From an uncultured Myxococcales bacterium (lineage in GTDB: Bacteria; Myxococcota_A; UBA9042), in contig CAJBNH010000198.1 of NCBI GenBank assembly GCA_903955385.1, forward strand, positions 1-40,238: a stretch of DNA of 40,238 nt. The letters run 5' to 3'. This document shows, piece by piece, positions 7,636-40,238 of this stretch (its first letter is position 1; each line of letters begins with the position of its first letter). The position numbers and the translations under genes are program-made. The notes below the pieces were generated by a model. The model did not search any database. It was given only the letters and a program-made list of their open reading frames with translations, and was not told where the DNA came from.

Positions 7636-9756
7636 CTACCAGCAGCAGGCGTACGCGTAGGCGGCGGAGTTCTGCGGGTCGTCGGCGGTCGAGCCCACGC
7701 CCACCGCCGCTTGGCTGCCGTCGTTGTCGGAGAACGAGGCGGTCCAGTTTGCGCTTGCCGTGATCTTGCCGGCCGAACGCAACACGGCGCTCTGCGAGAC
7801 CGAGCATACGTTGGCACCCAAGGCGGCGCACGCCGTCGTCGTGGTGTTCCAGTTGTAGCTGTTGGCGTTGGCGAGTTTGGCCATGCACACGCCGTCGACG
7901 TTGGTGCCACCGACGGGGCAGTCGGGGCCGGTGCGGGTGGTCGCGCAGCACGCGTAGCCGTACTTGTTGGTGGGGCTGGGGTCGTCCGAGCCGCTGCCGA
8001 TGCCCTTCTCATAGTTGGTGCTGTCGTTGTCGGAGTGGTCCGACGACCAGACGTTGACGGAGATCTTGCCGTTCTGGCGCAGCACCCAGTACTGGCTCTT
8101 GCTGCACAGGTCGGCCTGCTCTGCGGCGCAGGCAGAGACGGCTTCGTCCCACGTCTTGTCCGCAGTGTTGCGAAGGGCCAGGACGCGGATACCGGCGACC
8201 GTCTGCTCGTTCGCACCCTTTGGCGTCACGTTGTGGCAGCAGGGCGTCAGATAGATGCTGTCGGCCGAGTGGTTGTCGCCCGTACCGCCGTTGGCCGCGT
8301 TCCATTGACCGCTGTCGTTGTCCGCAAACGACGCCGTCCAGTTGGCGTTCAGAGCGGTCAGCGAGTCGCGGCGCATCAGGTACGCCTGGCTGTCGGTGCA
8401 GATGTCGGCGTTCTGCGACGCGCAGTACTTGGCCGCCGCAAGGAACGTGCGCCCCTTGGACAGGTTGGCCTTGCACATGCCGTTGGGGTCGGTCCCGGCG
8501 CAGAGCTGGAAGTCCTGGGTGCCCGCCGGGGTGGTGCTGCTGGGGGTGCCGACCGTCAGTGTGCCGTCGATGACGAGGTCGCCCTTGATGTGGATCTTCT
8601 TGCTGGACAGCGTCTGCAAGTTGACGGACCAACTCGTGATCTCGCCGTCGGTGGCGTTGTTCAGGAACGCCGTGTCGATGACCTGCAGGCGCCACTTTCC
8701 CTTGGGGTTCTTGCCCACCCAGTAGGTCAGGTCGCCCGAGATCGTCTTGGTCTGGTCGGGGTACGAGGTCTTGATTGAGTCGCCCTTCTTGCCGTTCTTG
8801 TTGAACAGCACGTACTCCTTGTTCTCCGAGTCGTAGAGGACCAACTGCAGGGCCGACATGTCCGAATTCGTGACTTCGATGCTCACGGTCAGCGATTGGG
8901 CAAAGCCGACGTCGCCGACCTCGATTTCGCTGTAGATGCCGATCGGGTTGTTGTCGAGAATCGGGGTGGCGGCCTTCGACGCAAACGCATCGACGAACTG
9001 GTTGAAGATCAGGTTGTTCGAGATCTCGTCGATGCCGTCGGGCGGCAGCTTGACGACCGGTTCCGGTAGGGCCACGCAGGTCAGCGTGCCGTCGGCCAGG
9101 ATGCCCGCGACGACCAGACCGGTGCCGCAAGCCTTGCCAAAGGTCGGAATCGCCGGCAGCCCCTGCAAGTCCTTGTACTGACCCGAGTAAGCGACCTGCT
9201 CAAAGTCGCCGGTCTTGGCGTAGGCAGCCAGGTTCGGTGTGCCGGAGAGGTCCGCGTAGCTGCCCGATAGCGCGACGTCGGACAACATGGTCGTCTTCAC
9301 GTAACCCGCCAACGCGTTGGCCGCCAAGTGGCTGGCTTGGACGCAGCCCGAGCACGCCAGCGAGTCCGCCAGACCCGCGCGCATGGCGTACAGCACCGAG
9401 TGCAGCGGCTGGCGCTCGAGCTCGGGTTCCTGCCCCACCTTGATGCCAAACCAGCCGATTGCCGGCAGGTTGGCGGCGACCAGCGGAGAGGCCGTGCCCA
9501 GCGCGGTGCCGAAGCGGCCGCCCTCGATCTTGACCTTGACCGGTCCCTCCGACCACAGCGGCGCGCCGCCCTGCTGTTGCAGGTAGATCGAGAAGATCAG
9601 GTCGTAAGAGCCGTCGGGCGCCGCGCCACCGCCGATCGCGGTCATCGCGCCTTCGACACGCACAGTGGCGGGCACTGTGGCGAGCGCCGCCCCCGCGTAC
9701 AGCGATGCGAGCAATCCCGCGATGAGCAGGCCGGTGACGGGTCGACGCGACAGCAT
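7636..9756 (-). CDS. Secreted P-domain protein with tail-fibre-like stalk and Cys-rich C-terminal modules
   Basis: A 706-residue exported protein. The signal peptide ends near residue 26 (AGAALA/TVPATV). Residues 30-135 are a beta domain of a type common in deltaproteobacterial surface proteins (GSYDLIFSIYL, PLWSEGPVKVK, HSVLYAMRAGLADSLACSGC). Residues 145-205 carry stalk-like repeats such as SGSYADLSGTPNLAAYAKTG, as in tail-fibre-type proteins. A proprotein-convertase P domain spans about 262-383 (ILDNNPIG ... GKNPKGKWRLQVIDTAF). The C-terminus (about 420-706) has three Cys-rich modules with CSKSQYWVLRQNGKI and ASFSDND patterns and ends in ACCW. No protease domain accompanies the P domain. 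Start: ATG with AGGGGG six bases upstream. It is a paralogue of the protein at 15045-17039 in its first 400 residues. The function is unknown; surface adhesion or binding is a guess. Confidence 0.8.
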   Translation of the reverse strand: MLSRRPVTGLLIAGLLASLYAGAALATVPATVRVEGAMTAIGGGAAPDGSYDLIFSIYLQQQGGAPLWSEGPVKVKIEGGRFGTALGTASPLVAANLPAIGWFGIKVGQEPELERQPLHSVLYAMRAGLADSLACSGCVQASHLAANALAGYVKTTMLSDVALSGSYADLSGTPNLAAYAKTGDFEQVAYSGQYKDLQGLPAIPTFGKACGTGLVVAGILADGTLTCVALPEPVVKLPPDGIDEISNNLIFNQFVDAFASKAATPILDNNPIGIYSEIEVGDVGFAQSLTVSIEVTNSDMSALQLVLYDSENKEYVLFNKNGKKGDSIKTSYPDQTKTISGDLTYWVGKNPKGKWRLQVIDTAFLNNATDGEITSWSVNLQTLSSKKIHIKGDLVIDGTLTVGTPSSTTPAGTQDFQLCAGTDPNGMCKANLSKGRTFLAAAKYCASQNADICTDSQAYLMRRDSLTALNANWTASFADNDSGQWNAANGGTGDNHSADSIYLTPCCHNVTPKGANEQTVAGIRVLALRNTADKTWDEAVSACAAEQADLCSKSQYWVLRQNGKISVNVWSSDHSDNDSTNYEKGIGSGSDDPSPTNKYGYACCATTRTGPDCPVGGTNVDGVCMAKLANANSYNWNTTTTACAALGANVCSVSQSAVLRSAGKITASANWTASFSDNDGSQAAVGVGSTADDPQNSAAYAYACCW

Positions 9757-15044: not shown

Positions 15045-17039
15045 ATGCAAGCGATTCTGCGAGTTCTGGGTGGCATGGTCCTGACGGCTCTTCTGTGGAC
15101 GCTCCCGGCGTTCGCGGCGGTTCCCACCTCGACCTTGGTGGAGGGTCTGCTGCAGTCGTCGGGCGGCGGTCCGGCGGCAGATGGCAAGTACCCGATCACG
15201 TTCGCGATTTATGGGCAGGCTGAGGGCGGTCAGGCCGCTTGGACCGAGGGTCCCGTCGAAATCGCAGTGGCCGGTGGCCAGTTCACGCACGCGCTGGGCA
15301 GCGTCAAGCCCTTGGATCCCAAGCTGTTCGCCGCACTCCCCGAGGCATGGATCGGCGTGAAGATCGACGCCGACCCCGAGCTGCCGCGCAAGGCGACGCT
15401 TGCCGTGCCGTTCGCCCTGCGCACGGCGCTGGCTGAAGGGCTGGACTGCAGCGGCTGCGTCACGCTTGCCAATCTGGATGCCGAGGCGCTGGCGGCGTAT
15501 GCCAAGACCGCCGACCTGGCCGCGGTCGCCACCTCTGGCGCCTATGCGGACCTGACCGGCGCCCCCGACCTTTCGGCGTTTGCCAAGACGGTGTCACTGG
15601 CCAAGGTCGCGACTTCGGGCCTGTTTGCCGATCTGGAGGGCGGCCCCGACCTCACCGCCTATGCCAAGTCGGCCGACCTTGCCGACGTCGCAAAGACCGG
15701 CGCTTACGCCGACTTGGGCAACCTGCCTGTGCTGGCCAAGGTGAACTCCGCGTGTGGCACCGGTCTGGTCGTCGCCGGACTGAAGGCCGACGGCAGTCTG
15801 GACTGCGTGGCGGCAATGACCAGCCTGCCCCCCGACGGCTTGAATGAGGTCTCGAACAACCTGCTGACCAACCAGTTCACCGACGCGACGGCCAGCGCCA
15901 AGACCCCGTTGGCTATCCCCGACAACTCGCCAGTCGGCGTCAGCGATGCCATCGACGTGCCGGACTATGGCGTTGCGCAGGGCGTGACCATCAACCTCAC
16001 GCTCTCGTCCAGCGACATCTCGCAGGTCAAGGTGGCGCTGATCGATCCCGCCAACACCGCCTACTTGCTCTACGACAAGTCCGGCACCGGCACGCAGCTG
16101 AAGACGTCGTGGCCATCGCCCACCAAGACGGTCTCGGGCGATCTCGCCGGCTGGATTGGCAAGAACCCCAAGGGCAAGTGGCAGCTGCAGGTGATCGACT
16201 CGAAGTTCCTGAACAACACGACCGACGGCAAGATCGAGGCCTGGAGCGTGTCGGTGCAGACGCTGTCGGCCAAGAAGGTGGCGGCCGGCGGCGCGTTCGT
16301 CTTCGTCAGCGCGACGACGCCACCGGTTCCCTGCAACGCCAGCAACTTCGGTGCCACCTACGGCGACCCGGTGGCCAAGGCGCTGTACGTCTGCAACGGC
16401 TCGGAATACGCGACGGTCTCGCTGCTTGTCCCCGGCAGCAAGGGCAACCCCGCGTTCTCGTGCAAGGATCTGCTGACCAAGGTGCCCACGACCAAGGATG
16501 GCTCGTACTGGATCGACGGCAACGGCGGCGACCCGGCGGACGCGCAAGAGCTGCTCTGCGACATGACCAACGGCGGCTGGACGCGACTTGCGGTCGACGA
16601 CTTCGAGGCAGCGGCAACCGGCTGGAGCATGGGCACCATGTCGTCGTGCGGCACACTCGGCAAGATCTTGGGCGGTTACAACACGTTCTCGGGCGGCTGC
16701 TTCAACCGACAGTACGATCTGGCTGGCGTCGCTCACACCGAAGCCAAGGTCTCGCTGACCTATGTCTCGATCGACTCGTCCGACGGCGAGAACGGCAGCG
16801 TGCAGCTGGACGGCGTCACCAAGTGGTCGCAGACACTGAACAATTGCGGCCTTCAGGTGGGCACCAACTGGTGCGGCGGTGGCAGCGGGCCGCCGTGCTT
16901 CGGCGACTCGAAGTACGACGTAGCGTTCACCTCCGCGCACTCTGCCGCCAAGGCGACGGTCAACGCCTGCTCGACGCTGGATCAGGTCGCGACGGACGAG
17001 AGCTTCGGCATCGACAACGTCGTGGTCTGGGTCAAGTAG
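15045..17039 (+). CDS. Secreted P-domain protein with tail-fibre-like stalk and fibrinogen-like segment
   Basis: A 664-residue exported protein. The signal peptide ends near residue 24 (LWTLPAFA/AVP). The first 410 residues have the same order of parts as the protein at 7636-9756: a beta domain to about 135 (ending EGLDCSGCVTL), stalk repeats at 150-230 (SGAYADLTGAPDLSAFAKT and variants), a CGTGLVVAGLKADGSLDC knot, and a P domain at about 285-408 (GKNPKGKWQLQVIDSKFLNN). The C-terminus differs. At about 470-516, SCKDLL, DGSYWIDGNGG and LLCDMTNGGWTRL match the N-terminal half of fibrinogen-type recognition domains. A Cys-containing beta domain of about 145 residues, unrecognised, follows. Start: ATG with GGAGG six bases upstream. 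Probably a surface or secreted binding protein; the ligand is unknown. Confidence 0.8.
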   Translation: MQAILRVLGGMVLTALLWTLPAFAAVPTSTLVEGLLQSSGGGPAADGKYPITFAIYGQAEGGQAAWTEGPVEIAVAGGQFTHALGSVKPLDPKLFAALPEAWIGVKIDADPELPRKATLAVPFALRTALAEGLDCSGCVTLANLDAEALAAYAKTADLAAVATSGAYADLTGAPDLSAFAKTVSLAKVATSGLFADLEGGPDLTAYAKSADLADVAKTGAYADLGNLPVLAKVNSACGTGLVVAGLKADGSLDCVAAMTSLPPDGLNEVSNNLLTNQFTDATASAKTPLAIPDNSPVGVSDAIDVPDYGVAQGVTINLTLSSSDISQVKVALIDPANTAYLLYDKSGTGTQLKTSWPSPTKTVSGDLAGWIGKNPKGKWQLQVIDSKFLNNTTDGKIEAWSVSVQTLSAKKVAAGGAFVFVSATTPPVPCNASNFGATYGDPVAKALYVCNGSEYATVSLLVPGSKGNPAFSCKDLLTKVPTTKDGSYWIDGNGGDPADAQELLCDMTNGGWTRLAVDDFEAAATGWSMGTMSSCGTLGKILGGYNTFSGGCFNRQYDLAGVAHTEAKVSLTYVSIDSSDGENGSVQLDGVTKWSQTLNNCGLQVGTNWCGGGSGPPCFGDSKYDVAFTSAHSAAKATVNACSTLDQVATDESFGIDNVVVWVK

Positions 17040-28083: not shown

Positions 28084-28212
28084 CTTGGCACGTGCAGGAA
28101 TCCTCGCTGTGCCGGGCCGTGCAGCAACGCCTTGAAGCCTATCGATGTTGCAGGTAGGGTCACAATCCATCCGTTCAATTGCAGATTCGCCGACACATGC
28201 GGGAGTGACGAC

Positions 28213-29994
28213 ATGCTGAGACCGATGTGCCTTCTCGTCGGCTTGACCCTTTCCGCCTCCGCCTTTGCCGCGCCCAAAGAGGCCGACGTGCTGCGGGAGT
28301 GGAATGCCGTTCGCGCCGATCCTCCCGGCTATGCGGCCCATCTCGAGGCACTGCTGCCGCTCTTTCAAGGGATGGAGTTCTCCGGGCCCTCTGGTCGAAT
28401 CCTGACCATCGAAGGGCCCGCTGCGGTGCGGGAGGCGATTGCCGTCCTGAAGGCGACCGCACCCATGCCGCAGCTGCAGGTTTCGGCCGGCATGACCCTG
28501 GCAGCGCGGGAGCACGCGAACGACCTGGGGCCTCGGGGCGGGCGCGGGCACGTCGGCACAGACGGCAGCACCCTCGGCGGCCGGTTGGAGCGGCACGGGC
28601 AGTGGCAAGGCACGGTGTTCGAAGCGATTGCCTTTGGCGCGACCACCGCGCAGGAGACAATTCTCGAGCTGCTGGTCGACGACGGCACCCCGTCACGCGG
28701 CCACCGCACGGCGCTGCTCTATCCGCAGGGGGCGTTTGTCGGCGTGGCGTGCGGCGAGCATCGGGACTACCGGTCGATGTGCGTGCTGGACATCGCCGGC
28801 CAGTTTGTCGAGGCAGATCAGGTGCCCAAGGCCCGGCCGGCGCCCGTCGATCCGAATCCTTTCGACGAGAGCAAGCCCTTTGCAAGCCCAACCGCGCGCA
28901 TGCCGACGGGCGCACCGACGCCGTTGGACCTGGCCGTATTCGCCGAAGTCAATGCGCTGCGCACGGATCCACAAGCCTGGGCAGCCAAGCTCGAGGCCCT
29001 GCTACCGCTGTTCGAGGGTTCGATCCTCAGGCGGCCCGGGCGCACCGCCATGTTCTGGTCGAATGCGCCAGAGTCGGTGCACCAGGCCATCGCGATGCTG
29101 AAGGCGACGGCGCCACAGCCGCCCGCCGTGTTTCTGCCAAGCCTTGCGGCGGGCGCGCGCGACTACGTGCGGGTGCGGTGGGCGCATCCGGCGTTTCTCG
29201 ACCGCAACTACTCGGCCCTCGACGCGGTGCGGCGCTATGGGTGGGGTCCGCTGTGCGGTGCGCTGACCATGCAGGGCGAGGGCGAGGCGTTCGACATCAT
29301 CGCCACTTGGGTGGTGCAAGGCCGAGGACCGAACCGAACGCTGCTGGAGACCGATGCGAGCCAGGTGGGCGTTGCGTGTGGCCCGTCGTCCGAGTACCCG
29401 CTGCGGTGCGCGTTGGTCTACGCAAAGGGCTTCAGAGACTACGACGAGGCGAGTGTCGCCCCGACGGTCGCGGCCGTGCAGCGCCTCGACGCCGCGCGCA
29501 CCGATCCGGCAGGCGAGGCCGCGCGCTGGCGCCTGCTGTTGCCCCTGATCAAGGGCGAGACGTTGCGCCTGCCGCAAGGCACGGTGCCGCTGCCGGGGGG
29601 TAGCGAGGCGCTGCGGACGCTGGTCGCGCGGCTGGCGGCAGCCAAACCGCTGCCGGCGCTCAAGTCGTCGGCCGACTTGCAAGAGCGGGCGCGCGACCTG
29701 GTGCAGGAACTGGCGCCGGGGCGAGAGCCGGGAGACGCGGGCAGTTGGCGGATGCGCCGGGCATCGAGCTACCGCCAGACGAACGAAACGGCCGACCCCG
29801 ACGAGTTGACGCTGTTCGCACCCGGAACGGGAGAAATGGTCGCACTGCGCGTCTTGCTCGAGCGCCCCGATTGGCTGCTGGCAAGAGACGAGATCAGCGT
29901 CGGGGTCTGGTGCGGAAGCCACGCGACCAAGGGGCAGGCTTGCGTCGTTGACGTCGCGGTGGGTTGGGTCGCGGCGGGTCCCGAGCTGCCTTGA
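28213..29994 (+). CDS. Secreted protein with three tandem CAP (SCP/PR-1) modules
   Basis: A 593-residue exported protein; the signal ends near residue 19 (LTLSASAFA/APK). The first CAP-like domain (about 22-200) shows the usual layout: VLREWNAVRADPPGYAAHLE at the start, RGHVGTDGSTLGGRLERHG with His113, VFEAIAFG with Glu137, and SRGHRTALLYP with His164. These are the positions of the CAP active-site or metal cavity. Two further modules follow (about 228-420 and 430-593) that begin alike (VNALRTDPQAWAAKLEALLP; RLDAARTDPAGEAARWRLLL) but have lost most of those residues. Start: ATG with GGGAGTG upstream. CAP proteins bind lipids, metals or peptides, or act as toxins; the role here is unknown. Confidence 0.8.
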   Translation: MLRPMCLLVGLTLSASAFAAPKEADVLREWNAVRADPPGYAAHLEALLPLFQGMEFSGPSGRILTIEGPAAVREAIAVLKATAPMPQLQVSAGMTLAAREHANDLGPRGGRGHVGTDGSTLGGRLERHGQWQGTVFEAIAFGATTAQETILELLVDDGTPSRGHRTALLYPQGAFVGVACGEHRDYRSMCVLDIAGQFVEADQVPKARPAPVDPNPFDESKPFASPTARMPTGAPTPLDLAVFAEVNALRTDPQAWAAKLEALLPLFEGSILRRPGRTAMFWSNAPESVHQAIAMLKATAPQPPAVFLPSLAAGARDYVRVRWAHPAFLDRNYSALDAVRRYGWGPLCGALTMQGEGEAFDIIATWVVQGRGPNRTLLETDASQVGVACGPSSEYPLRCALVYAKGFRDYDEASVAPTVAAVQRLDAARTDPAGEAARWRLLLPLIKGETLRLPQGTVPLPGGSEALRTLVARLAAAKPLPALKSSADLQERARDLVQELAPGREPGDAGSWRMRRASSYRQTNETADPDELTLFAPGTGEMVALRVLLERPDWLLARDEISVGVWCGSHATKGQACVVDVAVGWVAAGPELP

Positions 29995-30496
29995 GGCTCA
30001 GTCGTTAGCGGCGAGGGTCGGTCCATTCGGTCTCCGTGACCCAGCGCCCCGGTCGTTGCTGACCTCCGTCGAGGGCGCGGCGCCTGTGCCCGTCCTACGG
30101 CCAGGGTCACGCGGGTCAGCAAGATGGCCGACAGAATCAGCGTCTCACTAGGACCCGCTCCGTTGCGGGCTACCGCTGCCGCCACGGTCCATCGGCTCCT
30201 GTCGCGCCACTTCGGAGTCAAGCAGTCCACTTGCTTAGTGACTGCCAACCGTTCGTTCGCCTTGGCAAGGCCCCTGACGATCAAGCAGGCGGTCGACCGG
30301 CAGGACGCAGTGCCGTGCGGTTGGAGAGTCAGAATTGGGATTGCCAGCGGAGAATTCCCAATCGCTTATGTGTCTATTTGTAAAGAATCGTAAGGACCGT
30401 CAACCGCTGTCAGGCGGCGCCTCGTGATCAGCGAACCAGAGGGCCACAGTGGTTGCCGCTCGCGGGGAAGTCCCGCAGGGCGCAAAAAGGAGCAAG
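29995..30496. other. Intergenic region upstream of the four-gene secreted operon, 502 bp
   Basis: I find no credible gene. A 90-codon frame at 30124 has no ribosome binding site or familiar motif. The last 170 bp are clearly more AT-rich and probably hold the operon promoter. They include an inverted repeat at 30334-30362 and the AT-rich stretch TATTTGTAAAGAATCG near 30374-30390. Confidence 0.5.
30334..30362. promoter_or_regulatory. Candidate operator: inverted repeat ATTGGGA / TCCCAAT
   Basis: Perfect 7-bp arms (30334-30340 and 30356-30362) with a 15-bp spacer, at the start of the AT-rich promoter-like stretch before the gene at 30497. The centre-to-centre distance of 22 bp is about two helical turns, which suits a dimeric regulator. 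Confidence 0.35.
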
Positions 30497-32392
30497 ATGC
30501 GACAATCCATGATCCTGACAATGCTTTCGACAAGCGTCATGACCTTGGGGATGTGGACTTCCGGGGCACAGGCCGTCAGCCCTATCCATTCCCCCATGGT
30601 AGGTGACGGTGCGGTCTACTCAGTTACCTCTACCGGTGTGTCACGTGTGGACTACGGCCTGGTGGCTGCCGGCATGTCCAAGGCCGTCGGCCAGGACCGC
30701 CCCGTGGCGCAGGGGACGACCCAGATTCAGACCATCCGCTACGACCTCTCCGCTAAGCTGCACACCCGCGTGTTGGCGTCCGACGCCTCCGGCGTGCTGG
30801 TGGCCGCCCGCCTGCAAGACGTCTCGCTCATCGTGGACGGTTCAATGGACGCGCGGCGGGACCTGTTGGCCACGCCGTTCACCCTCCGCTACAACCGTTC
30901 GGGGCACATGGTGTCGTTTCAGTTCACGGACCGCTTTCCCCAAGACCTGCGGACCGTCATCCAGCGCTTGGTCGAGCCGATGCAGGGCGTTGCTCCGCCT
31001 GCGGGCGGCGCTGCGGCATGGTCCGCGAACGAGCGGGACAGCGACACCAGCTTCACCGCCCGGTACCAGTCCAGCGCCGTGAACCCGGCCAATGGGCTGA
31101 CGACTTGGACCAAGACCAAGACGGAAGTCCGTCCCCAGAGTGCGGACCTTGCGGCGATCCCGCTGCCTGGCGCCCCGTCTGCCCGGGTCAACCGGTCCCA
31201 GACGACCCTGACGTTTGACGCGATCCGCGGCGATCTGGCCAGCGTCCGCAGCGGTGAGAGCGTGACGACTCGCATGGGCTCGGCCTTCTTCTCAGACTAT
31301 GACACTACTTACCAGGCCGTCCGCGTGCAGGCCCCCCTTGCTCCCCTGGCCCGCACCGTCGCCGAAGCCGAGGCTCTGCGCCACGACCCGGCGTTTGCCC
31401 GTGCCAGACTGTATGACGTCGACGCCCACACGCGGCGCGCCGTCGAGGGCGTTCGCCTGACGGACATGATGGCATCCTTCCGCAGCAAGGCCCCGACCGG
31501 GGTCGCGCTCGCCGCGCACCAGCTGGGCTCGTGGCTGCGCCTGAACCCCGCCGCTTCCTTGGAAATTGCGCGTCAGATCAATGACATTGACCCCAAGACG
31601 GAGCGTTCCGCTTTCGGCTTTGGTTGGGCGGCTCTGGCCAGCGCCGGGCACCCTGAGGCCCAGAAGGCACTGGTCGCTGTGGCGACGCAGCCCGGCTGGA
31701 AGGCTCTCTCCGCGCACAAGGCCTTGGTGGCCATGATGAACCTCGACTCCCCCGAGCCTGCGACGGCGAAGCAAGTGTGGGCCCTGCGCTCCTCGATTGC
31801 TGAGCGGGGCAACTCGCAGCGGCGCTTGTCTGTGGCCACGAACGTGTACGGCATTCTCGGCGACGTCCAGAAGGGCAACCCGGCACTGACCGATCAGGTG
31901 GTGGCGAACCTTGCCGGGCTGTTGAAGCAACCGGACTCCCAGAGCCGCGTCCTGGCCCTCGACGCCCTGTCGAACGTGGGCGACCTGAACCGGGTCGCGC
32001 CGCTGGCCGCGCAGCACCTCACCTCGACGGATCTTCGCGTGCGCAACGCTGCGTTCGGGACCTTCCGCCGCATGACCGGCGACGTCGCGTTCCAGAAGTT
32101 CGCGGCTGCTTTCGCCGCAGAGATGGAGCCTGAGATGCGTCGCGAGGCAGCTTTGGTGGCGTACCAGATGGAGCCCGGCCCCGCCCGCAACGCATGGGCC
32201 ACCAAGCTTGTGACTTCCGAGGCTGACCCGAAGGTGAAGAGCGAGCTGGTCCAGATCTTGGGCCGGGGCATGAAGCGCTTCCCTGAGAACGCCCAGATTC
32301 TTCAGGATCTGCTGAGCACGACCCATGAGCGGACGGTGCGGCGCGACATCTACGCTTACGTGGCGCCCGTGACGAAGGGAGGTACCCGATGA
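30497..32392 (+). CDS. Secreted protein with vitellogenin-N-like layout (beta-rich N-terminus, HEAT-like helical C-terminus)
   Basis: A 631-residue exported protein; the signal peptide ends near residue 26 (WTSGAQA/VSP). Residues 30-290 are beta-rich. The order of segments (YSVTSTG near the start, a middle with LSAKLHTRVLASDASGVLVA, then LLATPFTLRYNRSGHMVSFQ followed by LRTVIQRLVEPMQ) recalls the N-terminal sheet of large lipid-transfer proteins (vitellogenin, MTP), where 'PF.F.....G.V' precedes a helix. From about 300 to the end it is alpha-helical with HEAT-like repeats (SRVLALDALSNVGDLNRVAP, LRVRNAAFGTFRRM), again as in that family. This assignment is inference from pattern, not proof. Start: ATG with AAGGAG five bases upstream. 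The stop overlaps the next start (ATGA). Confidence 0.6.
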   Translation: MRQSMILTMLSTSVMTLGMWTSGAQAVSPIHSPMVGDGAVYSVTSTGVSRVDYGLVAAGMSKAVGQDRPVAQGTTQIQTIRYDLSAKLHTRVLASDASGVLVAARLQDVSLIVDGSMDARRDLLATPFTLRYNRSGHMVSFQFTDRFPQDLRTVIQRLVEPMQGVAPPAGGAAAWSANERDSDTSFTARYQSSAVNPANGLTTWTKTKTEVRPQSADLAAIPLPGAPSARVNRSQTTLTFDAIRGDLASVRSGESVTTRMGSAFFSDYDTTYQAVRVQAPLAPLARTVAEAEALRHDPAFARARLYDVDAHTRRAVEGVRLTDMMASFRSKAPTGVALAAHQLGSWLRLNPAASLEIARQINDIDPKTERSAFGFGWAALASAGHPEAQKALVAVATQPGWKALSAHKALVAMMNLDSPEPATAKQVWALRSSIAERGNSQRRLSVATNVYGILGDVQKGNPALTDQVVANLAGLLKQPDSQSRVLALDALSNVGDLNRVAPLAAQHLTSTDLRVRNAAFGTFRRMTGDVAFQKFAAAFAAEMEPEMRREAALVAYQMEPGPARNAWATKLVTSEADPKVKSELVQILGRGMKRFPENAQILQDLLSTTHERTVRRDIYAYVAPVTKGGTR

Positions 32393-35157
32393 AGACGACA
32401 CACACCAAGACCCTGAGCCTCTCTCTGCTCGCAGTCGCCTTTGCCTTCGGCATGGGAAGCTGCTCGAGCGAGCCTGGGATCCAGTGCGGCCCGAACACCA
32501 AGCTGGACGAGGCCACAAACAAGTGCGTGGTGTCCATGCCTCCAGGCATGAACATCATCGTTGACGACTTCGTTGTCGGCGACTTCGAACTGACCAATGT
32601 CGACGTCCCGGAGCAACTCGAGGTAGGGTCGCCGCAGACCCGCACCTTCACCATCAGCAACAAGGGCAAGGCCGACCGTCCGGTGGTGTCGATCCGCTAC
32701 GCCATTGTTCCGATCAAGGCCAACATCTCGGAACTGCAAGATCAACTTGCCTCGATCGTCGATGGATCGGAGCTCGACGCCACCTTCCTGGGCATCACGT
32801 TCATCAAGGACCTGAAAGCCGGTGAGACGCGGACGATCTCGTATTTCCTGGCGGCGCCGAACACGGTGGTGGATGGCCTGTACGGGTTCATGTTCGCCGT
32901 GGACGAGGTTCCGCTGATCGTGACCGAAGACGGCGGCTATGCCGTGGACTACTCGGCCGCCGGCATGGGCAACGCGGACGGTAGCGCACGCTTGGGTGAC
33001 GCGGCGCTGTTGCACGCGCCTGCCTCCATCATCATCGGCAAGCCCGACCTGCCCAACTTGCGCGTCCTGTCCGCGAAGGTGGACAACAGCAGCTTCGAGC
33101 TGGACGAGACCGAGGGCAGCAAGGTCCCGATGTTCACGTTGAACGCCCGGATGAGCTCCCAGGCGATGAATTTGACCGAGCTGGTCACGGCGACGCTAGA
33201 GCTGAAGCTCCCGGGCCACACGCCGAAGACCCCGGGCAAGGATCTGGGGCGCGAGTGGTTCGAGGCGAAGAAGTTGGATTTCGACACCGCTCCGGAAACC
33301 ACCGAGTGGATGTACGACCAGAACCGGTCCTTCCCCCTGCTCTTCCAGCAGTCAGCCGGGCTGGCGGCAAGCAAGGTGTACAAGCCGAGCTGCCGGATGG
33401 AAATGGAACTCCCCGTGGACGCCACCGACACTGAGGCGGAGCCGGTCGAGGTCGAGAAGTGCGCCGTCATCTTCAACGAGGAGGGTCGGGACGATGTGTA
33501 CCGGCTTCACCTGCATCCCGGTGACATTCGCGTACTTGGCCTGACGGCGGACTTGGCCGCATTCAACCCGGACATCGACGAAAACGGCGAGATCGCGGGC
33601 AAGCTGGTCTACCATCTGGTCACTCCTGCGGCGCAGTATCAGGGCAACACGGCGGACGACACCGCCGAGATCCCGGTCGTCTTCATGGCGCCCCCGGCTG
33701 CTCCTGCCGCGACGGACAAGGACACCGACAACGGCGGAACGGACGTTGCTGCGAACGCCGCCAAGGGACCTTACTCGTACGTCGTCAAGGACGACCTCAC
33801 CCAGTCAGAAGTCGGCAACGCTTGGTTCGGCGCCGGCTATCGGCTCGAGAATGCGGCCAGCAACGAGAAGCGCTGGGATGTGACCACGGCTGGTTATCGG
33901 AACGCCGGCGGCAAGGTGTACGCCAACATCCTGAAGCAGGAAGTCATCATCTTGGGCGCCGGCGGCAAGATGGACTGGAACAAGGAGAATCCGGTCGGAC
34001 AGTGGGTGGCCGAAGCGAACCTGACCGTCTTCAACTACAAGCTGTTGAACCTGGCCTTCCTCGACAAGCTCTGCAAGACCACGGACAAGGTCACGGCGTG
34101 CCAGATCTTCGGAAACGTTGACGGGCTCGACGACTGGGACCCCAAGGAAGAGAGCGAGAAGACCGACAAGGGCGACGACGCGGACACAGAGGAAGAGGGC
34201 ACCGAGCTGAAGAAGGAGTGGGGAACCACCTTCATGGCCGGTCCGATTCCCCTCATGTTCTCGGCCGAGATCGCCCTCGAGATCGGGCTCAATTACTCGG
34301 GCAAGTTCCTGATCGACCAGTCCGACCCGGTCTTCAAGTACGGCATTGAGTTCGCCATCGGCCCCTATGCTGAGCTGAAGGCCCAAGTGTTCGGCGGCAT
34401 CAGCATTGGCATCGCGCGGGCGGGCATCGAAGGCAACTTGTCGATCATCAAGGTCGAATTCATGCCCACCATCACGTTCCTCACCAGAACGGCAGTGGAC
34501 AAGACGAAGGATTGCCTCCGCTACGGCAACACAACCCTGACCTTCGAAGGCCCCCTGACCTTGACGGGTCCCAGCGGCAACATCCAGATCGTTGCGTACC
34601 TGGGCTTCAAGTTCTGCTTCTTCGGCAAGTGCTGGAAATGGGAGATCAAGGTCTTCAGCTTCACCATCGCCAGCTTCAGTACGTTTGAGTACACGTGGAT
34701 GCTCTGGTCCGTCCAAAAGGAATGGTCCAAGCAGCCCACCGACGCCGGGATGTGCACCGACGCCTACGTACCGCCGGACAAGCTGGTGTGGAACTCGCCG
34801 ACGAGCTGTAGTGGCAAGTACTGCAACTCGTCGTCGACAGGCAAGGGCGCAAGCCGGTCGCCGGACAAGGTGTTGGCTGCCTACAAGTCGACCTACGATC
34901 TGGCCAATGTCACGTCGGGTTGTGTGGACGTCACCGTGTACGGCATCACCGAGACGAGCAACGACGTGGTCGTCTTGTACGACGCGAACGGAGTCGTGCA
35001 GAACTCGGTGACCGTCAAGGGAACGAAGGTGCCGGGATGGTCCGGTACCATCAACCAGACACTGCGGGTCTGCTCGCCCAAGGTGACCGCGGCGGTCGAG
35101 ACCGATGCCAGCAACACCCGAACGGGTGTGACCGTGACCTTTAATCCGGTGCGGTAG
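32389..35157 (+). CDS. Large lipoprotein, unknown function, coupled to the vitellogenin-N-like gene
   Basis: A 922-residue protein with a signal peptide and a lipobox-like MGSCSS (Cys25). A short Cys-paired segment (IQCGPNTKLDEATNKCV) follows. Residues 55-215 look like an Ig/CARDB-type beta domain (VGSPQTRTFTISNKGKADRP, a pattern of 'tf.isN.G'). The centre has an acidic linker (ESEKTDKGDDADTEEEGTE at about 585-603). After it come long amphipathic beta segments (IALEIGLNYSGKFLIDQSDP, YGIEFAIGPYAELKAQVFGG), suggesting extended sheets, and a Cys-containing C-terminal domain. The family is not recognised. Coupling by ATGA to the previous gene suggests the two products work as a pair, perhaps with this one forming the lipid-holding sheets (speculation). 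Confidence 0.65.
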   Translation: MKTTHTKTLSLSLLAVAFAFGMGSCSSEPGIQCGPNTKLDEATNKCVVSMPPGMNIIVDDFVVGDFELTNVDVPEQLEVGSPQTRTFTISNKGKADRPVVSIRYAIVPIKANISELQDQLASIVDGSELDATFLGITFIKDLKAGETRTISYFLAAPNTVVDGLYGFMFAVDEVPLIVTEDGGYAVDYSAAGMGNADGSARLGDAALLHAPASIIIGKPDLPNLRVLSAKVDNSSFELDETEGSKVPMFTLNARMSSQAMNLTELVTATLELKLPGHTPKTPGKDLGREWFEAKKLDFDTAPETTEWMYDQNRSFPLLFQQSAGLAASKVYKPSCRMEMELPVDATDTEAEPVEVEKCAVIFNEEGRDDVYRLHLHPGDIRVLGLTADLAAFNPDIDENGEIAGKLVYHLVTPAAQYQGNTADDTAEIPVVFMAPPAAPAATDKDTDNGGTDVAANAAKGPYSYVVKDDLTQSEVGNAWFGAGYRLENAASNEKRWDVTTAGYRNAGGKVYANILKQEVIILGAGGKMDWNKENPVGQWVAEANLTVFNYKLLNLAFLDKLCKTTDKVTACQIFGNVDGLDDWDPKEESEKTDKGDDADTEEEGTELKKEWGTTFMAGPIPLMFSAEIALEIGLNYSGKFLIDQSDPVFKYGIEFAIGPYAELKAQVFGGISIGIARAGIEGNLSIIKVEFMPTITFLTRTAVDKTKDCLRYGNTTLTFEGPLTLTGPSGNIQIVAYLGFKFCFFGKCWKWEIKVFSFTIASFSTFEYTWMLWSVQKEWSKQPTDAGMCTDAYVPPDKLVWNSPTSCSGKYCNSSSTGKGASRSPDKVLAAYKSTYDLANVTSGCVDVTVYGITETSNDVVVLYDANGVVQNSVTVKGTKVPGWSGTINQTLRVCSPKVTAAVETDASNTRTGVTVTFNPVR

Positions 35158-35160
35158 TCT

Positions 35161-36441
35161 ATGAGGATTCCTGTCCCCGGCAGGCCCGCCGTGCGGCTGT
35201 CGCCCCGGGTCTGCCGGGTGACGGGAATTCTATGGCTTCTTTCCGTGTCGTTGCCAGCCTTTGCGCTTGTGGGTGGCAGCGCCTTGCCCAATCAGGCCGA
35301 CCCTGGTGCTGCCGGGCGCCGCGCCGTCGCACCGTTGACCCGAAGCGGCACGCCGTTCTGCACCGCCTGGTTGGCCTCACCGCGACGGGCGGTCACCGCC
35401 GCCCATTGCATGTCTGAAGTGGATGACTTGCCGGCGCTCGACCTCGAGATCCTGGCGGCCGACGGCAGTCGGGTCCCGCTGCCGGTGGTCGCCGCCGAGA
35501 TCAAACCCGACGCCGACTTGGCCGTCCTGACCCTCGGGGTGGCGCCTTGGGCTGAGCTGGGGGTCGAGCCTCTGAGCTGGCGCGCGGTGGCGCCGGCCAA
35601 CAACTGGATCGGGCGACGCATCGAGGTCGCCGGAGCCGGAACAGGAACGCCAGAGGACCAAGGCATTGCCTGGGGCGGTTGCACGGTCACCGAGGTGGAA
35701 CCGACGGGAATACATTTCGTTTGCGACGATGGCGTCGGCCCGTGTCGGGGGGACTCAGGCGGCCCATGTCTGCTGGAAGCAGAAGGGGAAACCCCGGTCC
35801 AAGTGGTCGCCGTCCAGACGTCCGGCGCGCTTGATTGCGATGGTGCAGGTTGGGGCATTCGGACGGACACAACGGCGGCGTGGATTCAGGAAGCGATCGC
35901 CCGGCCGCTCCCTGCGGTTAGCGAACCCTGCGGAGACGCCCCGGACAAATGCGACGGCCGCGTAGAGTGGCGCTGTCGCGGCGGCTGGTGGCGCACGCGG
36001 GATTGTGCGCTGCTGGACGCCGGTTGCGGCGACCGCGGTTTCGGACTGGGTGCCGGGTGCTTGCCTCCGTCCTGTGGCGACTTGGACGCTCGGGGTGCTT
36101 GCGAAGCGGGCCAAGCCCACTGGTGCGGCATCGGTGGCATTCAGAATCAGAACTGCCCGGCCTTGGGGCTCGCTTGCGGTTGGGACGCGGCCGCGGGCGG
36201 TCACCGCTGTGGTCCAGCAACGGCAGATGCGGCTTCAGAGACGACACCAGACGCAACGGCGGTGGTGGCGAATGCGGACGAGCCCACGGCAGAGGGTGCA
36301 GCAGGGACCGGCGGCTGCAACGTCGGGAGGAAGCCCGCTTCGCTCGCCAGCGTCTGGATGATCGCCGGATTGCTGGGCGGTTGGATCGTTGCGACTCGCC
36401 GAAACCGCCATGAACTTGTGCAGAAGAGGAGACGAACATGA
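35161..36441 (+). CDS. Trypsin-like serine protease with MYXO-CTERM-like C-terminal anchor
   Basis: A 426-residue exported protease of the S1 (trypsin) family. The signal peptide ends near residue 35. The catalytic triad is intact: His82 (AVTAAHC), Asp119 (PDADLAVL) and Ser199 (GPCRGDSGGPC). Residues 255-350 form a Cys-rich module (CDGRVEWRCRGGWWRTRDC, then CGDLDARGACEAGQAHWC). The C-terminus has GGCNVG (Cys386), a hydrophobic helix (VWMIAGLLGGWIVA) and an Arg-rich end (RRNRHELVQKRRR). This is the layout of MYXO-CTERM sorting tails, which are cut and lipid-anchored at the Cys by myxosortase. It starts 3 bp after the previous stop and overlaps the next gene (ATGA). Substrates may include the products of the flanking genes. 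Confidence 0.85.
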   Translation: MRIPVPGRPAVRLSPRVCRVTGILWLLSVSLPAFALVGGSALPNQADPGAAGRRAVAPLTRSGTPFCTAWLASPRRAVTAAHCMSEVDDLPALDLEILAADGSRVPLPVVAAEIKPDADLAVLTLGVAPWAELGVEPLSWRAVAPANNWIGRRIEVAGAGTGTPEDQGIAWGGCTVTEVEPTGIHFVCDDGVGPCRGDSGGPCLLEAEGETPVQVVAVQTSGALDCDGAGWGIRTDTTAAWIQEAIARPLPAVSEPCGDAPDKCDGRVEWRCRGGWWRTRDCALLDAGCGDRGFGLGAGCLPPSCGDLDARGACEAGQAHWCGIGGIQNQNCPALGLACGWDAAAGGHRCGPATADAASETTPDATAVVANADEPTAEGAAGTGGCNVGRKPASLASVWMIAGLLGGWIVATRRNRHELVQKRRRT

Positions 36442-39400
36442 CGAACGCGAAGACGACGGGCCAAGGCCGGATGTGGACACTGGCAGTGGCGGTCCTGCTC
36501 ACGGCAGGCGCCTGCGGGACCAAGGCGGAAGAAGCAGCCCTTCCGACGACTGCCGTCGCGTCTGGCTTCGTCTTGAAGACCGACTCCTTCTACTTTCCCA
36601 ACTTCGGCGGGGTCAGTGCCGTCGCCTCGATGAACCCGGAGTCCGTTGCCCGCCTGTTCGGCGAGGAGGCGGCGTGCGCGTCGGTCAAGAACGACGTGTG
36701 TCTGCTGCGCCCGGTGGCCAAGACGTGGATGAAGGCGGTCAACAAGTCGATGCAAGGGGGACGCTGCGAGGGGTTCGCCGTCCTGAGCGGCTTGATGTTT
36801 CTTGGGGAAATGTCGCCAAAGGACTTCGGGGCAGACACCGTCGCGGGCTTGGGCCTGAAAGACAACACGTTGTTGGCCCGAGAGATCGCCTTCTGGTACT
36901 CAACGCAATACCTGCAGGATGTCGTGATGACGGGCTCGCTGCAGCTGTCGGCGAAGAAGACCGTGTCGTTTCTGGCCGAGGAGTTCGCCAAGCCCCTGGC
37001 CAAGCAGCAAGGCTGGCGGTTGGGCATCGTGCGCCTGGACGACGATGGCCGGGTGATGGGCGGGCACGCAATCCTGCCGTACGCCCTGGAACCGGAAGCA
37101 GACGCGGGCAAGTACCGCCTTCTCGTCTACGACAACAACCACCCGGAAAAGGAGCGGGCCATCCTGATCGACACGAACCAGAACCGGTGGGAGTACGTGG
37201 CGTCCACCGACCCGACGAACAGCGACGCGCTGTACTTTGGGGACTCCAAGAACGGCAATCCGATGTACTTGGCCCCAGTTCGCGCCAGAACGGCCAAACA
37301 CCCTTGTCCCTTCTGCACGATGGAGGAGGCAGCCGGTCAAGCCGCGTTGGCTCAGGTCTTCGGTTTCGGCAGCGCCGAGGTTTCCGTCGAATCCCCAACC
37401 GGCGAGAAGGCCGGACTGATCAACGGCCGCTGGGTCAACGAGATCCCGGAAGCCCGGGTTGAGCCGACCTTCAGCCTGGACCCCTGGGCGGACCCGATGC
37501 CGCCCGTCATGCTCGTTCCGCAGGGCGACGTCTCTGTGACCATCACCGGTCGGACCGACGGTGGGTCCGCTGGTGCGATCGTCAATGGGCCCGGGTTTGC
37601 GGCCACCGCGGAAACGACGTTCCTGCAAGGGGACAAGGGGGTTACCCACCAACTGGACGTGTCCGGTGACGGCACCACTGTGGGGTTCACGCCCGGAAAG
37701 GCCATCGACGGGGTGGTCACCGTGAGCCATGAGACGAAGTCGGGCAGCCAGCTGGCCGTGACGCTGACGTTCAAAGCGGCCGACGGAGTCTCTTCGGTCG
37801 AGATCGCCGTGGACATCGTCAAGGGCGACGCCACCTTGGGGGTCAAGGGCGAAGGCGACATGAACTTGACGATTGAGATCACCAAGTCCAGCAAAGACGG
37901 CGAGGACACCCTGAACGGCACCGTGGTCAACCCCGCTGGTGGGACGGTGACCGTGGACGTCGAGAACTGGAACGGAAGTGGCACCCCCATGCCCGTGGAG
38001 GTCGACATTGACGGAGACGGCACCCCGGACCAGTCCAGTCAGATCGAGGACCTCGGCCCGCCTGAGGACTGTGCGAACAGCCAGAAGGACAACTCGGAGA
38101 CCGACATCGACTGCGGTGGCGCGTGCACCACGAAGTGTGTCGACGGGCGCGGCTGCCTGATTGCGGACGACTGCCTCTCCGGATTCTGCAACGCCACGAC
38201 CAACGTGTGCGTCGCGACGTACTGCGAGGACGCGACCAAGAACGGCGGCGAAACCGACAAGGACTGCGGTGGCGGCTGCGCGAAGAAGTGCGACGCGGGC
38301 CAAGCCTGCGCCGCCGATGGGGACTGCTCGACCGGAATGTGCAACATGCAGTCGCATCGCTGCAGCGCAACCGCGTGCGAGGACGGCCGCAAGGACGGGG
38401 ACGAGACCGATAGCGACTGCGGCGGTGCCTGCGGCGAGAAATGCAGCCTGGGCAAGGGGTGTGCCAAGGGTGATGACTGCAAGTCCGGGTTCTGCAACCC
38501 AACCACGCTGGCATGCGTGGCATCCCACTGCCTCGATGAGGTGGTGGACGGCGACGAGACGGGCATGGACTGCGGCGGCTCCTGCCAGAAGAAGTGCCAA
38601 CCAGGAGTTGGCTGCGTGGTAGGGGCCGACTGCGCATCGACCTTCTGCAACACGCAGACCCACCTGTGCGTGGCGACGCAGTGCGAAGACGGCGAGCAGG
38701 ACGGTGACGAGACGGGCGCGGACTGCGGCGGGGCGTGCGCGACGAAGTGCGCCGAGGGTCAGGGCTGCCAGACCGGCGCCGATTGCGCGTCGACCTTCTG
38801 CCACACGACGAACCTTGTGTGCGTGGCGACCGAGTGTGACGACGGCAAGCAGAACGGCCAAGAGACAGGGGTGGACTGCGGCGGGACGTGTGCGACGAAG
38901 TGCGCCGTCGGCGAGAGTTGTGCGACCAGCGCAGACTGCGCATCGGCCAACTGCAGCGTGCAGAATCTCTTGTGCGTTGCGAGCGAGTGTGACAACGGCA
39001 AGCAGGACGGCAAGGAGTCAGGCGTCGATTGCGGAGGGGAATGCGTGTCGAAGTGCGCCGACGGCATGGGATGCATGACAGGGGGCGACTGCGCGTCGAC
39101 TTTCTGCCACGCGCAGACCCACCTCTGCGTCCAGACGCAGTGCGACGACGGTCAGCAGAACGGGCAGGAGTCCGACGTCGACTGCGGCGGCGACACCTGC
39201 CCGACGCAGTGCACCGACGGTCAGGGCTGCGCAAGCGGCTCCGATTGTGCGTCCACTTTCTGTCACGCAAAGGGCCACATGTGCGTGGAGACCGAGTGCG
39301 ATGACGGCGTAAAGAACGGGCAAGAGACGGGCGAGGACTGCGGTGGCGGTACCTGCTCGACGCAGTGCGCCGTCGGCCAAGGCTGCGTGACCGGTGCTGA

Positions 39401-40238
39401 CTGCGCGTCGACCTTCTGCAACGCTCAGTCCCAATTGTGCGTGACGACGCAGTGCGACGACGGCAAGCAGAATGGCAAGGAGACCGGACAGGATTGCGGC
39501 GGGCCCTGCGCGGCAAAGTGCGCGGAGGGGAACGGCTGTCAGACTGGCGCCGACTGCGTGTCGACCTTCTGCAACGAGCAGACCCACTTGTGCGTGGCGA
39601 CCCAGTGCGACGACGGCGCGAAGAACGGTCAGGAAACCGGCGCGGACTGCGGCGGTACTTGCGCGACGAAGTGCGCTGACGGACTGGGGTGTGCGACAGG
39701 CGACGACTGCAAGTCCACGTTCTGCAACGCGCTGTCCCAATTGTGCGTGGCGACGCAGTGCGAAGACGGTCAGCAGAACGGCCAGGAGACCGGCGCGGAC
39801 TGCGGCGGGATTTGCGCGACGACGTGCGCCGACGGGCTGGGCTGCGCGAAGGGTACCGACTGCAAGTCCACCTTCTGCAACGCGCAGTCCCAATTGTGCG
39901 TGGCGACGCAGTGCGACGACGGCCTGCAGAACGGGCAGGAGACCGAGGTGGACTGCGGCGGGATTTGCGCGACGAAGTGTGCCGACGGGCTGGGCTGCGC
40001 GAAGGGCGACGATTGCAAGTCCACCTTCTGCAACGCTCAGTCGCAATTGTGCGTGGCGACGCAGTGCGACGACGGCGCGAAGAACGGTCAGGAAACCGGC
40101 GCGGACTGCGGCGGGACCTGCTCGACGAAGTGCGCTGACGGACTGGGGTGTGCGACAGGCGACGACTGCAATTCCACCTTCTGCAACGCTCAGTCGCAAG
40201 TGTGCGTGGCGACGCAGTGTGACGACGGCGCGAAGAAC
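36438..40238 (+). CDS. Lipoprotein with papain-like cysteine protease domain and long Cys-rich repeat array, partial (3' end missing)
   Basis: At least 1267 codons, open at the right edge. Lipobox LLTAGAC (Cys26). Residues 45-280 carry a papain-like pattern: Cys110 in GGRCEGFAVLSG, His210 in MGGHAILPYALE, and Asp232/Asn233 in LLVYDNNHPE, the order and spacing of a Cys-His-Asp/Asn protease. Residues 340-535 are beta-rich, possibly two Ig-like domains, ending in a calcium-type DIDGDGTPDQ. From about residue 545 a 51-residue repeat runs 14 times and begins a fifteenth. Its consensus is CDDGxxNGxETGxDCGGxC, then ATKCADGxGCxxGxDC, then xSTFCNAQSQLCVATQ. Start: ATG overlapping the protease stop (ATGA), with AAGAGGAGA upstream. 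It would be anchored by lipid with the repeats as a rigid stalk. Confidence 0.85.
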   Translation, partial: MTNAKTTGQGRMWTLAVAVLLTAGACGTKAEEAALPTTAVASGFVLKTDSFYFPNFGGVSAVASMNPESVARLFGEEAACASVKNDVCLLRPVAKTWMKAVNKSMQGGRCEGFAVLSGLMFLGEMSPKDFGADTVAGLGLKDNTLLAREIAFWYSTQYLQDVVMTGSLQLSAKKTVSFLAEEFAKPLAKQQGWRLGIVRLDDDGRVMGGHAILPYALEPEADAGKYRLLVYDNNHPEKERAILIDTNQNRWEYVASTDPTNSDALYFGDSKNGNPMYLAPVRARTAKHPCPFCTMEEAAGQAALAQVFGFGSAEVSVESPTGEKAGLINGRWVNEIPEARVEPTFSLDPWADPMPPVMLVPQGDVSVTITGRTDGGSAGAIVNGPGFAATAETTFLQGDKGVTHQLDVSGDGTTVGFTPGKAIDGVVTVSHETKSGSQLAVTLTFKAADGVSSVEIAVDIVKGDATLGVKGEGDMNLTIEITKSSKDGEDTLNGTVVNPAGGTVTVDVENWNGSGTPMPVEVDIDGDGTPDQSSQIEDLGPPEDCANSQKDNSETDIDCGGACTTKCVDGRGCLIADDCLSGFCNATTNVCVATYCEDATKNGGETDKDCGGGCAKKCDAGQACAADGDCSTGMCNMQSHRCSATACEDGRKDGDETDSDCGGACGEKCSLGKGCAKGDDCKSGFCNPTTLACVASHCLDEVVDGDETGMDCGGSCQKKCQPGVGCVVGADCASTFCNTQTHLCVATQCEDGEQDGDETGADCGGACATKCAEGQGCQTGADCASTFCHTTNLVCVATECDDGKQNGQETGVDCGGTCATKCAVGESCATSADCASANCSVQNLLCVASECDNGKQDGKESGVDCGGECVSKCADGMGCMTGGDCASTFCHAQTHLCVQTQCDDGQQNGQESDVDCGGDTCPTQCTDGQGCASGSDCASTFCHAKGHMCVETECDDGVKNGQETGEDCGGGTCSTQCAVGQGCVTGADCASTFCNAQSQLCVTTQCDDGKQNGKETGQDCGGPCAAKCAEGNGCQTGADCVSTFCNEQTHLCVATQCDDGAKNGQETGADCGGTCATKCADGLGCATGDDCKSTFCNALSQLCVATQCEDGQQNGQETGADCGGICATTCADGLGCAKGTDCKSTFCNAQSQLCVATQCDDGLQNGQETEVDCGGICATKCADGLGCAKGDDCKSTFCNAQSQLCVATQCDDGAKNGQETGADCGGTCSTKCADGLGCATGDDCNSTFCNAQSQVCVATQCDDGAKN
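38073..40238 (+). repeat. Tandem 153-bp Cys-rich coding repeats (14 complete, continuing past the edge)
   Basis: Fourteen complete units and the start of a fifteenth, usually 153 bp. Early units (38.1-38.6 kb) are divergent. The last four or five (from about 39.6 kb) are nearly identical; for example the CDDGAKNGQETGADCGG coding stretch near 39.6 kb recurs about 459 bp (three units) later, near 40.06 kb. This gradient points to recent expansion or gene conversion at the 3' side. Confidence 0.85.

Follow-up and report, generated by a model that had tools for sequence, protein, structure and literature searches.

The locus studied here raises the question of whether a bacterium can encode, as two separate but coupled genes, the halves of a lipid carrier of the large lipid transfer protein (LLTP) type. 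The literature describes LLTPs as animal proteins that serve lipoprotein assembly and yolk, and our literature search for bacterial LLTPs found no description. The window, i.e., the whole stretch of 40,238 nucleotides that was analyzed, derives from an uncultured Myxococcales bacterium and contains two adjoining genes, here called P1 and P2, for which such a relationship had been suggested in a first-pass annotation (Table 1).

Table 1. Coordinates of P1, P2, their parts and the genes that follow them in the window.
Feature	Position	Strand	Basis or remark
P1, secreted homologue of the LLTP N-terminal module (N-sheet and HEAT helices)	30497..32392	+	631 aa; profile, AlphaFold, Foldseek
P1 residues 38-277, N-sheet-like beta domain including helix 149-162	30608..31327	+	AlphaFold model; MTP N-sheet matched by profile and by hhalign
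P1 residues 288-619, HEAT-like helical region	31358..32353	+	HEAT_2 match; AlphaFold model
P2, probable lipoprotein	32389..35157	+	922 aa; ATGA overlap with P1
P2 signal peptide and probable lipobox Cys25	32389..32463	+	sequence reading
P2 residues about 50-435, probably CARDB/Ig-like domains	32536..33693	+	weak: CARDB E 0.16, residues 65-140
P2 residues 462-798, amphipathic long-strand (sheet) domain, common to genes adjoining P1 homologues	33772..34782	+	profiles, model, Foldseek
Trypsin-like serine protease, downstream of P1-P2	35161..36441	+	beside P1-P2 in 4/4 P2-type loci
Lipoprotein ORF, runs off the window	36438..40238	+	residues 26-541 also conserved in two further loci, close to P1-P2

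The P1 frame opens with an ATG at 30497, preceded by AAGGAG at 30487-30492, and closes with a TGA at 32390-32392. The ATG of P2 (32389) lies inside this stop region, giving a four-base overlap (ATGA), and a GGGAGG site for P2 sits within the 3' end of P1. The order P1-P2 is kept in three other genomes, namely an uncultured Myxococcales MAG (G040), a Deltaproteobacteria MAG (G032) and an Archangium MAG, with identities of 38-57% for P1 and 46-62% for P2. Because the pair is conserved at 38-62% identity in these genomes, we regard P1 and P2 as real genes. A scan of genome contigs for P2 returned three relatives only. The window's own genome also carries a second P1 paralogue (L047:10522-12483; G000:C138), and the giant protein upstream of it ends in a strand domain.

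Downstream of the pair, the trypsin-like protease and the second lipoprotein may act in maturation. The conserved region of this lipoprotein is papain-like in look (GRCEGFAVLS ... GHAILPYAL ... YDNN) and is followed by many Cys-rich tandem repeats. Upstream, at 28132-29994, a secreted protein has a single CAP domain by Pfam (5e-14) and apparently three tandem CAP-like segments; it was not found in the other P1-P2 loci examined. Elsewhere in the window, two secreted proteins with similar N-termini (7636-9756, VPATVRVEGAMTAIGGGAAPDGS; 15045-17039, VPTSTLVEGLLQSSGGGPAADGK) flank a large ORF on opposite strands.

By homology, P1 belongs with the N-terminal modules of the animal LLTPs. Its AlphaFold model (pLDDT 87.7, pTM 0.79; 36-row alignment) shows an N-terminal beta barrel with a central helix and, directly after it, HEAT-like helices, collinear with LLTPs. 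This is the segment order that the first-pass annotation had read in the 631-residue secreted protein: the PFTLRYNRSGHMVSF strand pair falls at residues 128-132 and 138-142, the helix at 149-162 follows, and Pfam recognizes HEAT_2 in P1 at E 4.8e-8. When the model was compared to the PDB with Foldseek, ranks 1-7 were all MTP, lipovitellin, apoB or vitellogenin (E 1e-13 to 3e-6). Among them, MTP reached 1.1e-13, lipovitellin 1.3e-12, apoB 7e-11 and honey bee vitellogenin 1e-8, while the first HEAT or ARM protein appeared below these named LLTPs, at 6e-6. A Foldseek match to lipovitellin or MTP, which the first-pass annotation had named as support, was thus obtained for P1. TM-scores to LLTPs were low, at 0.35-0.48 for P1 (full-length matches) and 0.18-0.28 for the strand domain of P2, and therefore curvature, packing and detailed arrangement differ from those of LLTPs. 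The P1 chain ends after the helices, and the candidates for the lipid-enclosing C- and A-sheets, which LLTPs carry on the same chain, are found on P2. Given this absence of C- and A-sheets from P1, we class it as a split homologue and not as a canonical LLTP.

Sequence profiles also link P1 to this family, as the earlier annotation had anticipated for an HMM-HMM-type comparison with vitellogenins. The P1 family profile (36 sequences) matched lipovitellin 1lsh at E 5.8e-16 (profile 145-522 against chain 90-506) and MTP 8eoj/6i7s at E 1.3e-7 (profile 61-524 against chain 29-514), each alignment being a single stretch through sheet and helices. Vitellogenin_N (PF01347) scored 15.6 bits on P1 itself, below its gathering cut-off of 24, and matched 15 of 25 P1 relatives at E<=0.01. 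The cut-off was passed by the relatives L055 (45.7 bits), P0007 (37.4) and L048 (28.1), so automatic annotation may already name a few P1 relatives vitellogenin-domain proteins. Ten ordinary HEAT proteins of the window's own genome, whose HEAT scores were in many cases far higher, gave no Vitellogenin_N match at E<=1. A PF01347 search across this genome gave no match, but its controls were equally silent, which makes the result uninformative.

With the full P1 profile, HEAT-only designed proteins outscored LLTPs, and the beta domain was therefore tested alone. Searched against the whole PDB at E<=10, the beta-domain profile found two matches only, both MTP chains and both weak (E 1.9 and 2.2). 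The alignment with MTP is collinear and covers the strand-pair motif as well as a W..E.D..G....Y motif set against MTP TNEVDISGNCKVTY. By hhalign, the P1 beta domain scored 32.2 against the MTP N-sheet (E 1.6e-4); 100 shuffles reached 15.4 at most, and the reversed sequence scored 10.5. The LLTP N-module carries the motif E-x-D-x-x-G-x-C-x-x-x-Y, whose Cys takes part in a disulfide. In P1 this motif is recognizable as W..xE.D..G....Y but is Cys-less, and the whole protein is without cysteine. A beta module is conserved in the P1 family, whereas an ordinary HEAT-repeat protein would have no such module.

In P2, the strand domain is followed by a further C-terminal domain, and the C-G-x-x-T...C motif of the protein is common to lipoproteins in the relatives' loci. 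The annotation had described a 922-residue lipoprotein with long amphipathic strands, and such strands are indeed predicted, with a hydrophobic alternation that exceeds that of shuffles (p = 0.001). The model of the strand domain (pLDDT 80.2, pTM 0.61; 32 rows) folds as a meander, with about thirteen long antiparallel strands grouped at model residues 1-112 and 140-319. Its only PDB matches by Foldseek at E<=1e-3 were MTP (1.4e-5, prob 1.00) and lipovitellin (1.7e-4, prob 0.94); next came vitellogenin and another entry for MTP, interspersed with pore-forming proteins (prob about 0.1). The stretch of MTP matched could be its C-terminal sheets or its N-sheet. By sequence, hhalign of the domain against the MTP C-terminal sheets scored 12.4, the same as shuffles, and comparisons with the MTP N-sheet, the PDB and Pfam gave nothing above chance. 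Pfam vitellinogen sheet families matched one of 66 members at E 0.2; this Vit_open_b-sht match is at chance level and was discarded. NCBIfam, PHROGs and a tblastn search of plasmids gave nothing useful. The suggestion that P2 could form the lipid cavity is supported within limits: MTP and lipovitellin are the sole fold matches at this threshold, about 337 of the 922 residues are involved, and sequence similarity to LLTP sheets was not found. Since sequence similarity is missing, TM-scores are low and the MTP region is ambiguous, the tentative assignment of P2 as an LLTP-like sheet rests on fold and gene linkage.

This linkage extends across Myxococcota. Using an iterated profile built from the P2 region, we detected a strand domain at <=2.5 kb from P1 in 64 of 76 P1-family loci (upstream on the same strand in 56, downstream in 6 and otherwise placed in 2). 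Four of the 12 exceptions lack flanking sequence, and in L119, L121, L138 and L140, also among the 12, the C-terminus of the upstream protein is similar by eye. Co-occurrence, which is largely a consequence of linkage and was counted over phylogenetically non-independent genomes, was complete across the 52 genomes of the class (25 with both P1, scored at E<=1e-12, and the strand domain, these being the same 25 genomes, and 27 with neither), and among 379 Myxococcota genomes P1 was found in 56 and the strand domain in 81, with both in 52 of the 56 P1 genomes. Genomes that had at first counted as domain-only supplied 20 loci for a check; a P1 homologue adjoins the domain in 17, and two of the remaining three reach a contig end. 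The strand domain forms, in most relatives, the C-terminus of a variable secreted protein (up to >3000 aa) just upstream of P1 and, in some, the whole of a secreted protein of about 290 aa. P2 of the window and of three relatives has it internally, not at the C-terminus. Together with the profile and fold matches of P1 and the fold match of P2, this phylum-wide linkage supports the earlier proposal of two halves encoded as separate coupled genes.

Some loci of this set merit separate mention. Two of them (L108 and L110) were considered as natural fusions of both parts and rejected, as the extra length is out-of-frame noise ahead of P1. Four others (L049, L050, L056 and L063) share a conserved order of four genes, in which a giant secreted protein and then a P1 homologue precede two lipoproteins, the first of ~730 aa and the second of ~820-1020 aa (called at 1352 aa in L063). 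The motif C-G-x-G-T lies close to the N-terminus of the mature protein in both of these lipoproteins, which also have Cys-rich CxGKxCGxDGCGGxCG repeats, as seen in L049.

We consider it probable that P1 and P2, as products of separate genes, make up an LLTP-like complex that binds lipid in the cell envelope of the bacterium. We infer the complex, its lipid cavity, its cargo and its location by building on the homology of P1, the fold match of P2 and their linkage. The C-sheet (604-717) and A-sheet (722-886) of MTP hold its lipid cavity between them, and a further packing contact joins the A-sheet to the N-terminal barrel (PMC10907164). Exported P1 would supply the N-sheet and HEAT-helix cradle, like the N-terminal module of MTP or vitellogenin, and P2, probably lipid-anchored, would supply the long amphipathic strands that pack on P1 and enclose lipid in the manner of the MTP C- and A-sheets. 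Because the sheet domain ends a variable passenger in relatives, the pair may load this surface or secreted passenger with lipid, or use lipid to seat it in a membrane, comparable to the action of MTP on apoB.

The arrangement in relatives is also what one would expect if P1 were a dedicated periplasmic chaperone or export partner that shields an amphipathic C-terminal sorting domain during transit to the surface and carries no lipid, the variable N-terminus of its partner being the passenger. The domain there ends secreted proteins with variable N-termini directly upstream of P1, whose frame overlaps or abuts that of the partner. We regard such a role as the main rival, though rather unlikely, given that the domain is internal in P2 of the window and three relatives, that the whole fold of P1 is that of a lipid carrier, and that the nearest solved folds of the strand domain are lipid carriers as well. 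Partners with adhesin-like or Cys-rich repeats in many relatives, and the trypsin-like protease adjoining P1-P2, would suit a structural or adhesive surface part in which P1 is still an LLTP N-module homologue but the cavity has lost its lipid function. The hydrophobic alternation retained in the P2 strands argues against this, and it appears quite improbable.

Least credible of all is that P1 is an ordinary HEAT-repeat protein whose LLTP matches reflect repeat-family cross-talk, with the P2 match reflecting generic long-strand similarity. The high rank of designed HEAT proteins with the full profile and the want of a sequence signal in P2 are in its favor, but the beta domain alone matches MTP, LLTPs rank above all HEAT/ARM proteins by fold, and the HEAT controls show no Vitellogenin_N match; as a reading of P1 it is largely refuted.

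Set beside the MTP large subunit (6i7s, 8eoj), the proposed LLTP-like complex is alike in the N-terminal beta barrel with strand pair and helix, then HEAT-like helices, which correspond to P1, and in the sheet domain of P2, for which MTP is the best fold match and comparable in size (the two sheets given above, PMC10907164; P2 domain 337 aa). It is unlike MTP in being encoded by two genes where animals have one chain, in the lack of cysteines in P1 and of sequence similarity in the sheet part, and in its likely location in the bacterial envelope as opposed to the ER; a PDI partner is not known for P1-P2. As to vitellogenin and lipovitellin (1lsh; honey bee Vg 9ens/9enr; PF01347), the P1 family profile spans sheet and helices of 1lsh and several relatives exceed the Pfam cut-off, whereas P1 falls below it, has no yolk regions and has its lipid sheets encoded separately. 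The N-terminal (beta-alpha1) region of apoB-100 (9bd1) is a fold match of P1, and the relatives' sheet domain, too, is part of very large secreted proteins. In apoB, however, N-module and amphipathic sheets form one chain and MTP is needed as a second protein, while here the N-module is itself a separate protein. Ordinary bacterial HEAT-repeat proteins share the HEAT_2 repeats of the second half of P1 but have no N-sheet barrel, no Vitellogenin_N match and no linked sheet domain.

More tentatively, Myxococcota may possess a widespread and old system of two proteins for lipoprotein assembly: a protein like the N-module of MTP would load lipid, and the amphipathic sheet domains that receive it would belong to variable proteins, either secreted or at the surface. 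We see this as possible but doubtful. If true, animal LLTPs would represent a late, fused version of a fold that bacteria also have in split form, or would have descended from the split form. A bacterial two-gene LLTP would alter the view of the origin of this fold, and the pair would be a simple system for studying the cooperation of N-module and lipid sheet. It would also suggest an unrecognized myxobacterial route for moving or displaying lipids at the cell surface.
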